Shown here in pieces: positions 6,971 through 41,962 of a stretch of 64,000 nucleotides of DNA. The notes under the pieces were generated by a model. It saw only the letters and a program-made list of their open reading frames with translations, searched no databases and had not been told where the DNA came from. Origin of the DNA: Fibrobacter sp. UWR3 (lineage in GTDB: Bacteria > Fibrobacterota > Fibrobacteria > Fibrobacterales > Fibrobacteraceae); the NCBI RefSeq assembly GCF_900143055.1, contig NZ_FRCW01000009.1, forward strand, positions 1-64,000, read 5' to 3'. The position numbers and the translations under genes were made by a program. How positions within the stretch are numbered: position 1 is the stretch's first letter; each line of letters starts with the position of its first letter.

Positions 6971-7999
6971 TCAACGATATGTATAGGTGTATTTGTACCG
7001 CCTTATAACCTTATCAAAGTAATCATCTGCGGTTTTACGAACATAGGAACTTTCCACAACATTTCCATTCTCATCAACCGTAACGCCGACCACCCACCTC
7101 AGTTTTCCGCCATAATCATAATACTCTTCCCGATCCAAGCGCCCATCCTTATATACAGCACTTCGTGAAACCCCATTTTCCCAAATTGATTTAGTTGTTC
7201 CGTCTAGGTTGTAGGTATACTTCCGATGAATTCGTCTTCCAGAAAAATCATCCGAAAAAAGTATTTCAATTGGATTTCCTTTAGCATCCATCTCTTTTAG
7301 GCGATAACTATACATCTCTCCATTATAAGTAACCTTCTCTTCTTTTCTGTTTTCGCTAACATCAAAATCAACACGACTCTCACTAAACGACCGCTCATCA
7401 TGAATAGAAACAAGCGAGCCATCCTCATCGTAATCAATCTTTAATTTGTGTATAAACGGATAATTTATTCGGGCAGAAACCATCCTGTCATTATCCACTC
7501 GATATTGGACCTCAAAAACCTTTCCAGAATCATTCTGTAAGGTGTACACCCTTGTAATCGCCCCCTCGTCTACAGATTCCGTCATTCGGAGAGATGATCT
7601 TCTATCGGTCCGGCGAGAAATCGGCAGTGTAAAATTTTCAATCGTCCTACTTAATACAACCCCTTTTTCAGTAGTGGATTTTGCCGAAAAGAGAATTTTT
7701 CCCAGGGAATCTTCTACAACATGTTCAATCTGTATTCCATAATCATCCCAACACTTTCTCTCTTTCCCATCAACTTTCAATTTGCCGGAAACTGTATCCA
7801 ACACAAATAGTTCAGCATTTACGCACGCAATCTTTTCAGAAAGCACCCTCCCCTCAAAGTCCGTACGTTCATACTTTTTCCAACATCCAGTTTTATCGAG
7901 ATGCGAAAAGAATTCCAGCGCCCTTGCTCCTTGGAAATTCGTACATCCCCAAAAGAGAAACGAAATTACAAGGACAAGGGAAAATCGCATCAAAGACAT
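6971..7999 (-). CDS. Putative lipoprotein with YD/MORN-like sequence
   Basis: A hydrophobic leader ends in a lipobox (LVISFLFWGC, Cys about residue 19), so the product is probably anchored in the envelope. The rest of the 342 residues is rich in Tyr, Asp, Gly and Arg. It has loosely repeated KYTYNLDGTTKSIWENG and EEYYDYGGKLRWVVG segments, reminiscent of YD/RHS or YwqK-type beta repeats. No catalytic motif was recognised. The start codon lies 3 bp after the stop of the upstream outer-membrane-like gene, so the two are probably translated together. Base composition is more AT-rich than neighbouring housekeeping genes. Confidence 0.7.
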   Translation of the reverse strand: MSLMRFSLVLVISFLFWGCTNFQGARALEFFSHLDKTGCWKKYERTDFEGRVLSEKIACVNAELFVLDTVSGKLKVDGKERKCWDDYGIQIEHVVEDSLGKILFSAKSTTEKGVVLSRTIENFTLPISRRTDRRSSLRMTESVDEGAITRVYTLQNDSGKVFEVQYRVDNDRMVSARINYPFIHKLKIDYDEDGSLVSIHDERSFSESRVDFDVSENRKEEKVTYNGEMYSYRLKEMDAKGNPIEILFSDDFSGRRIHRKYTYNLDGTTKSIWENGVSRSAVYKDGRLDREEYYDYGGKLRWVVGVTVDENGNVVESSYVRKTADDYFDKVIRRYKYTYTYR

Positions 8000-8002
8000 T
8001 TG

Positions 8003-9250
8003 TTACCAAAGCGAAGGTGTTGTAAATGAGAATCCAATTTCTGCATACACCCCAGGAATATATTGTATAGGCGACAACTTCAAGCCCATTTCAAAGCGAG
8101 TCCAGGAATCATAAAAGAACCCAGTCTTGGAAGTGATATATTTGATATCGGCATCTAAGGGGATGTCTATACTTTGACGAATGCCAGAAGGAGTATTTCC
8201 CTTGATATAATATTCTCCATAAACCATTAAATTATTGACGTGTTTAGTATCAAACACTTCCGTGCTATCCCTTCTATTGGGTTTCTTTTCAAGTTTATTT
8301 CCACAGAAGATATTTCTCGCATATCCGGCACCAAAGCCAAAGCACTTCCCACTTGACGGGGAGCAATGGACGACACCTATAGTCGCATCTACAAGGAATC
8401 CGACACCTATGCCCGAAGTATCTTCGACCCAACCATTGTCATCCAAAAGATTATCCGTCGGGAAATAGACATCCAAGCCAACCGTAGCACCAAACTTTAA
8501 CGCCCACGTCTTGTCGTTTGTTCCTTTGGACATTGCCGGGAACAGCCCCTCATCAAAGGTTAGTTTTCCATCCCCAGCATTCTCGGCAACCTTCTTCTTT
8601 TCCCAAGTTTTAGAAGCCGAAAATTCCTTACTCCTTCCACCATTCGGATTGTACTCAGTCCAATAATGCTTGAAAGGCGAGTAATAACGCAAGGAATCAT
8701 AACTATTTACAAATTTGTACGAGAATTTTCCGCTAGAAAAAACACTCATCGGGTTATCCGATTCAAGTTTGTCCCAAATAAGACTTTCTCCATTATACCT
8801 ATATTGGAAGTTCCCATAAAACGGGGTTATTAGTTCGAGCTCTTCCAAGACTCCGTTCCGAAACGAAGCTCTCATCTTGAACGATTTCTTCTCCGCCGCG
8901 GTCTGTTCCGCAACGCTCTGGTCAGATTGCTTCTGCGCAAACTTTTGGTCTTTGATTAAGTTTTCGAGGACTCTAATAAGCGGAGAGTCCTTGAAAAACT
9001 TGGGTCCGTATTTTTCGGAGTCAAACAGGTCCCCACAGTCCTGCATCCATTTAGCAGCCAAATCATCCGTTTGCTTGATGACGTCTTCATCGTAACGCAA
9101 CAGAAGGGAGCCTCTTTCGAAAGAGGTGTGCAAGGCTTTTTGCGGATTGTATTCCTCACCAGTGAATGCCTTGAGGTAGTCCAAACATTCCTGGGCATGA
9201 ATTTCCAACTGCCTCGTTTTTTCATCTGAGGCAAAGGCATGCCCTGCCAT
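8003..9250 (-). CDS. Predicted outer-membrane/envelope protein, start region out of frame
   Basis: No named family was recognised. The 415 residues have an acidic, helical N-terminal third and a beta-rich C-terminal half with many aromatic residues. The protein ends in Trp, as outer-membrane barrels often do. The in-frame ATG at 9250 (MAGHAFASD) has no good ribosome binding site and would begin in the middle of a signal peptide ending in the AxA-type site HAFA. A strong ribosome binding site and ATG at 9308 lie in a different frame across a TTTC repeat. Losing one 4-bp unit would join them into a normal signal peptide. As written, the gene therefore appears off, or the repeat is misassembled. 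Confidence 0.72.
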   Translation of the reverse strand: MAGHAFASDEKTRQLEIHAQECLDYLKAFTGEEYNPQKALHTSFERGSLLLRYDEDVIKQTDDLAAKWMQDCGDLFDSEKYGPKFFKDSPLIRVLENLIKDQKFAQKQSDQSVAEQTAAEKKSFKMRASFRNGVLEELELITPFYGNFQYRYNGESLIWDKLESDNPMSVFSSGKFSYKFVNSYDSLRYYSPFKHYWTEYNPNGGRSKEFSASKTWEKKKVAENAGDGKLTFDEGLFPAMSKGTNDKTWALKFGATVGLDVYFPTDNLLDDNGWVEDTSGIGVGFLVDATIGVVHCSPSSGKCFGFGAGYARNIFCGNKLEKKPNRRDSTEVFDTKHVNNLMVYGEYYIKGNTPSGIRQSIDIPLDADIKYITSKTGFFYDSWTRFEMGLKLSPIQYIPGVYAEIGFSFTTPSLW

Positions 9251-9258
9251 TACAACAA

Positions 9259-9286
9259 GAAAGAAAGAAAGAAATAAAGAAAGAAG
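9259..9286 (-). repeat. Tetranucleotide TTTC repeat (candidate phase-variation tract)
   Basis: On the plus strand there are four perfect GAAA units (9259-9274), then TAAA, GAAA and GAA. Read on the coding (minus) strand this is a TTTC tract. It falls inside the first codons that follow the ATG at 9308, in the segment coding for the hydrophobic core of a signal peptide. Four-base units change the reading frame when the copy number changes. Confidence 0.85.
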
Positions 9287-9305
9287 TCTTTCTTGTACAA
9301 TTCCT

Positions 9306-9320
9306 CATCAGAAACCTCCT
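9306..9320 (-). promoter_or_regulatory. Strong ribosome binding site and ATG upstream of the TTTC tract
   Basis: On the minus strand AGGAGG (9320-9315) is followed by 6 bp and ATG (9308-9306). From this ATG the frame reads MRNCTRKTSFFISFFLS and stops after 28 codons. It is offset by one base from the 8003-9250 frame (58 bp lie between the two ATGs). This is the best translation start in the region and decides the interpretation of the gene. Confidence 0.8.
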
Positions 9321-9419
9321 GAAAGAGTAAAAAATGGAGATCCCCACCTTGGTGGCCATGCGCACTAAACAACAAGTTGTTAAGTGCTGTCCGCCCGCCT
9401 GCGCGGGGATGACACCCTA

Positions 9420-14990: not shown

Positions 14991-15125
14991 AGATCCCCGA
15001 CCACGTCGGGGATGACAACAGGAAAACCAAAGATCCCCGATCAAGTCGGGGATGACTACAGGAAAACCAAAGATCCCCGACCACGTCGGGGATGACGACA
15101 GGATGACAACGGGATGACGACAGGA
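14991..15125. repeat. Three tandem 40-bp units with a REP-like palindrome
   Basis: Units start at 14991, 15031 and 15071. Each contains GATCCCCGA-N6-TCGGGGATGAC followed by ACAGGAAAACCAA, and a shortened GGATGACAACGGGATGAC tail follows. The middle unit differs at a few positions. They lie between the TIGR02147 gene start and the end of the membrane-protein gene at 15129. Single relatives are scattered elsewhere (for example 16277-16300 and 41756-41779). Confidence 0.88.
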
Positions 15126-16262: not shown

Positions 16263-16276
16263 GAATTTGAATGGGA

Positions 16277-16300
16277 GATCCCCGCCTGCGCGGGGATGAC
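16277..16300. repeat. REP-like palindrome
   Basis: GATCCCCGCC-TGC-GCGGGGATGAC, a single copy of the dispersed family that also occurs in tandem at 14991-15125. It lies just after the tex stop, between the gene and its terminator. Confidence 0.8.
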
Positions 16301-41580: not shown

Positions 41581-41962
41581 CAACAAGCCCCAGACTCCAC
41601 GCTATTTTGCAAATCCGGCGGTGAAATCGGACTTTTTTCATCATTTTCACCGCCACTTCCGCAACTTTACCCCCAAAAATACGGCAAAGGAGGGCGCACG
41701 CCCTCCCTAAGACCCTCCCGACACTTAATAATCCGCTAAACAGGTATAAAAAGGAGATCCCCGCCTACGCGGGGATGACAGCAGATTATGTGAGCCGGAG
41801 GCGGCTCGTATCAACGAGCCGTCGTAGGCGACCTTTGGACACTTGCGCTTTAGCGCTTAGTGTACATGGCCACCTTTAGGTGGGAGCGAGTGAGGAACCG
41901 GAGGTTTCAATGCCCTAGATGACGAGCGAGCGGTCGCATTTGCGCGAGCACCTGCGGTGCAC
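41581..41962. other. Intergenic region with REP-like element and small hairpins
   Basis: There is no gene here. A REP-like palindrome (GATCCCCGCC-TAC-GCGGGGATGAC) lies at 41756-41779. Several short inverted repeats follow, such as GGCTCGTATCAACGAGCC, GCGCTTTAGCGC, CCACCTTTAGGTGG and GTGCACCGCAGGTGC-like sequence near the end. The region may include decayed copies of intergenic repeats. Confidence 0.6.

Follow-up and report, generated by a model that had tools for sequence, protein, structure and literature searches.

A gene for a putative exported envelope protein in Fibrobacter sp. UWR3 appears to be OFF in the sequence as given, through a frame break in or near a TTTC tandem repeat within its signal-peptide coding region. 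The break is tentatively explained by slippage at this short repeat, which would be reversible in principle. The gene lies in a window of 64,000 nucleotides (the whole stretch analyzed; contig NZ_FRCW01000009.1, positions 1 to 64,000), and its surroundings contain the following features.

9338-9413, (-) strand: palindromic element in the intergenic region that separates the rubrerythrin gene from the 415-codon ORF gene
9315-9320, (-) strand: ribosome-binding site AGGAGG, read from the sequence, with a 6-nt spacing to ATG 9308
9222-9308, (-) strand: short ORF with the likely true start ATG 9308, encoding the first part of a signal peptide and then a stop
9257-9285, (-) strand: TTTC array of 7.2 imperfect copies, the upstream part imperfect and broken by a TTTA unit
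8003-9250, (-) strand: 415-codon ORF, encoding the signal-peptide end MAGHAFA and the mature protein
6971-7999, (-) strand: partner lipoprotein gene (342 amino acids; lipobox LFWGC), starting just past the stop of the 415-codon ORF

Start region and reading frame

The distance from ATG 9308 to ATG 9250 is 58 bp (58 mod 3 = 1), and the two codons are thus in different frames. Translation from ATG 9308 yields MRNCTRKTSFFISFFLSCCNGRACLCLR*, a product of 28 codons that ends at a TGA at 9222-9224 (-). An earlier note on this DNA had described AGGAGG and ATG 9308 as lying 58 bp before ATG 9250 and out of frame with it, and translation as stopping after 28 codons; direct reading of the sequence and its translation gave the same result on both points. 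The 415-codon frame is closed upstream by a TGA that overlaps ATG 9308. Between this TGA and ATG 9250, the frame contains no ATG, GTG, or TTG, and inspection of the sequence revealed no purine-rich site ahead of ATG 9250.

The TTTC array, whose unit is not a multiple of three, separates ATG 9308 from the mature-protein sequence and encodes the larger part of the signal peptide's hydrophobic core. Of the three frames that enter the tract, one connects ATG 9308 with the 415-codon ORF, as the earlier note had proposed in joining a signal peptide to the 415-residue protein upon frame restoration; the present sequence uses one of the other two, both of which terminate early. Gain or loss of units at the tract therefore opens or interrupts a frame that is elsewhere intact. 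The position of the break must be inside the TTTC tract or close to it.

Relatives in other Fibrobacter genomes

The gene is present in 12 of the 80 genomes of the genus (its own included), and the eleven relatives in other genomes share 32 to 67% protein identity (aligned relatives). In all eleven, the frame is uninterrupted: it opens at an ATG, GTG, or TTG, continues through a signal peptide, and extends over the whole protein. Most of the relatives have a similar purine-rich site before the signal-peptide start. Their signal peptides consist of a charged n-region, a hydrophobic core, and an Ala-type cleavage site, with a best 10-aa Kyte-Doolittle mean of 2.0 to 3.1 in the seven relatives scored.

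The closest relative (67% identical) aligns with the window frame upstream of ATG 9250 (VVVAAGFGFASDEETRQLE versus LVVMAGHAFASDEKTRQLE), and the signal-peptide ends correspond as well (VVVAAGFGFA-SDEETRQLE in the relative versus LVVMAGHAFA-SDEKTRQLE in the long ORF of the window, read upstream of 9250). Because of this match upstream of ATG 9250, we consider ATG 9308 the likely natural start of the gene, which on this reading is OFF in the sequence as given. Homologues starting at the 9250 position and lacking a signal peptide had been named in advance as evidence to the contrary; among the relatives, none starts at that position, and every one has an N-terminal signal peptide. We accordingly rejected ATG 9250 as the start of a protein lacking a signal peptide, as homology also reaches further upstream. 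An automatic annotation starting at ATG 9250 would miss the signal peptide and leave the frameshift unnoticed.

No further lesion occurs across the 415 codons of the mature protein. The dN/dS ratio relative to the 67% identical homologue was approximately 0.18, a rough value (dS, approximately 1.1) that mostly reflects selection predating the break. Given the undamaged mature protein and this ratio, the break would be either recent or reversible. The earlier note had also called for repeat counts to be compared among related strains; none of the eleven relatives has a TTTC tract, and no run longer than 10 nt was present near the start in any of them.

Protein product and partner lipoprotein

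The signal peptide supports a Sec-exported, envelope-type product. No Pfam, NCBIfam, or PDB sequence relative was found that would place the protein in a named family; two NCBIfam matches, each to a single relative (E values of 0.02 to 0.08), were judged to be due to chance. An AlphaFold model (mean pLDDT of 36 from a two-sequence alignment, i.e., low confidence) contained long strands over residues 249 to 413, within the last 165 residues, and the C-terminal end is aromatic in most relatives. These low-confidence strands and the mostly aromatic C terminus allow no more than a guess, albeit a reasonable one, at an outer-membrane barrel.

The lipoprotein gene, which the earlier note had regarded as coupled, is indeed a conserved partner. 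It is found in 8 of the 80 genomes (its own included), each of them one of the 12 with the first gene, and by the listed coordinates the two genes are adjacent on the same strand. The chance of such nesting is approximately 2e-8 under an assumption of independent genomes, which these are not. Other Fibrobacter genomes hold an uncharacterized pair that resembles the window pair in its signal peptide and in a lipoprotein that occurs only alongside the first gene; the relatives differ from the window gene in that their frame is unbroken and they lack the repeat.

Length and rarity of the TTTC tract

The tract had been placed at 9259-9286. An array is present there (9257-9285), but the perfect run is shorter, covering only 9257-9274 (18 nt; 4.5 units); the rest of the array is interrupted by a TTTA unit. 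In 564 kb of the same genome (i.e., the window plus 25 other stretches), this was the longest tetranucleotide run, and five such runs reached at least 12 nt. Simulated order-3 Markov sequence (6 Mb) contained no run of at least 16 nt, and when the 61-nt local segment was dinucleotide-shuffled 20,000 times, one shuffle reached 18 nt. Chance would not be expected to yield a run of this length. The genome as a whole has a single (TTTC)4, which was found in 2 of the 80 genomes of the genus, the other copy being unrelated and inside an intact, ordinary coding region; (TTTC)5 was absent from all 80. Published phase-variation surveys (PMC5953494, PMC6321876) require five or more tetranucleotide units without interruption, which the 4.5-unit run does not reach; it does pass the 3-unit detection threshold of a permissive Haemophilus repeat search (PMC2651432).

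A predicted fold at 9255-9296 (-) contains a 10-bp inverted repeat, one arm of which is the end of the TTTC tract and the other ACAAGAAAGA, immediately ahead of the tract. This quasi-palindrome could by itself favor insertions and deletions.

The second-longest tetranucleotide run sampled was (GCCT)4 at L017:16052-16067, in frame within an intact 994-codon ORF. Among perfect short repeats in the sampled stretches, heptamers rather than tetramers were the longest, i.e., (TCCATCA)6.3 at L027:12441-12484, (TCTTTCG)4.4 at L035:3853-3883, and (AGACGAA)4.3 at L019:1765-1794. The second of these is intergenic, and an epimerase-like gene, with its ribosome site and ATG, follows it immediately.

Explanations for the frame break

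In the explanation that we prefer, the gene would be the first of a two-gene accessory envelope operon that encodes an exported, probably outer-membrane protein and then a lipoprotein. Replication slippage would add or remove repeat units in the TTTC-rich signal-peptide coding stretch, translation from ATG 9308 would leave the frame and end after 28 codons, and the protein would be OFF; lipoprotein synthesis would presumably be reduced in the same state. Since the affected site is a tandem repeat, another slip could restore the frame and thereby produce low-rate translational ON/OFF variation. We would expect the slip rate at 4.5 units to be low, and a return to the intact frame at a useful rate is conjectural. 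A genuine slippage frameshift of this kind, reversible in principle and with low-rate variation possible, is an explanation that we hold tentatively and rate somewhat short of probable. We favor it over a fixed null allele, a sequence error, or noncanonical expression. Counted against switching is the fact that the genome has a single TTTC tract of such size and not a set of them, and the lack of the tract in all relatives counts against conserved switching. Description of the locus as a "hallmark" of phase variation was consequently too strong: the frame is broken in or beside the tract, as claimed, but the 4.5 units are below the five-unit cutoff, and no relative has the tract.

Alternatively, a one-off slippage indel could have become fixed in this strain as an OFF allele, perhaps during culture; the gene would then be a young pseudogene that does not switch adaptively or often. 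The short, interrupted tract and its absence from relatives would fit such an event, and loss of an accessory gene (present in 12 of 80 genomes) may be tolerated; nevertheless, neither the remainder of the gene nor its partner lipoprotein gene is damaged, and we regard this account as rather unlikely. That the real gene is intact and the repeat was missequenced or misassembled is a good deal less likely again. Repeats are common sites of such errors, all relatives are intact, and the assembly is a draft of 20 contigs. It is, however, rated 100% complete with approximately 1% contamination, and a tract of 18 to 29 nt fits easily inside a single short read.

The least credible account, which we consider very improbable, is that protein is made from the present sequence as it stands, by noncanonical initiation, by frameshifting, or as a cytoplasmic form from ATG 9250. 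Initiation at an ATT near 9301 in the frame of the long ORF, or slippage of the ribosome or polymerase on the tract, would yield a different hydrophobic signal, VQERLLSLFLSFFLVVMAGHAFA. Upstream of 9250, this frame does encode a hydrophobic segment, and GTG and TTG starts occur in relatives. That frame nevertheless lacks ATG, GTG, and TTG, ATT start codons are very rare, and ATG 9308 with its well-placed ribosome site would compete; for the cytoplasmic form, no homologue begins at the 9250 position.

Comparison with known phase variation

The tetranucleotide-repeat genes of Haemophilus influenzae are subject to translational phase variation of surface proteins through simple sequence repeats, and the opa genes of Neisseria carry CTCTT repeats in the signal-peptide coding region. 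With its repeat in this region, opa is the closest analogue in layout to the window gene. The common logic of the two systems is a non-triplet tandem repeat in which gain or loss of a unit switches the frame of an envelope protein (surveys PMC2651432, PMC5953494), and the mechanism considered here is of a well-known kind. The window gene differs from these contingency genes in having 4.5 perfect units (at least 5 in the surveys), a single tract, and no recognized protein family.

Among papers on phase variation and Fibrobacter, no phase-variable Fibrobacter gene was found in the portions of text available, and an example of repeat-driven phase variation in Fibrobacter would be new as far as this literature shows. 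That the locus is a genuine translational phase switch in this cellulose-degrading gut lineage, acting on a surface protein-lipoprotein pair, is doubtful. If the gene truly switches, contingency-locus biology would extend to Fibrobacter, which would suggest that surface proteins of a nonpathogenic fiber degrader are under fluctuating selection, e.g., from phages or host factors.

Upstream surroundings

No sigma-70-like promoter consensus was found upstream of the 415-codon ORF gene, and the leader had no Rfam match at the gathering score. The palindromic intergenic element recurs in the window (9338-9413, 15007-15096, 16276-16300, and 41755-41779), with ends GTCATCCCCG and GGGGATCT. The sequence GTCATCCCCG is present in six copies in the window, versus 0.12 expected.
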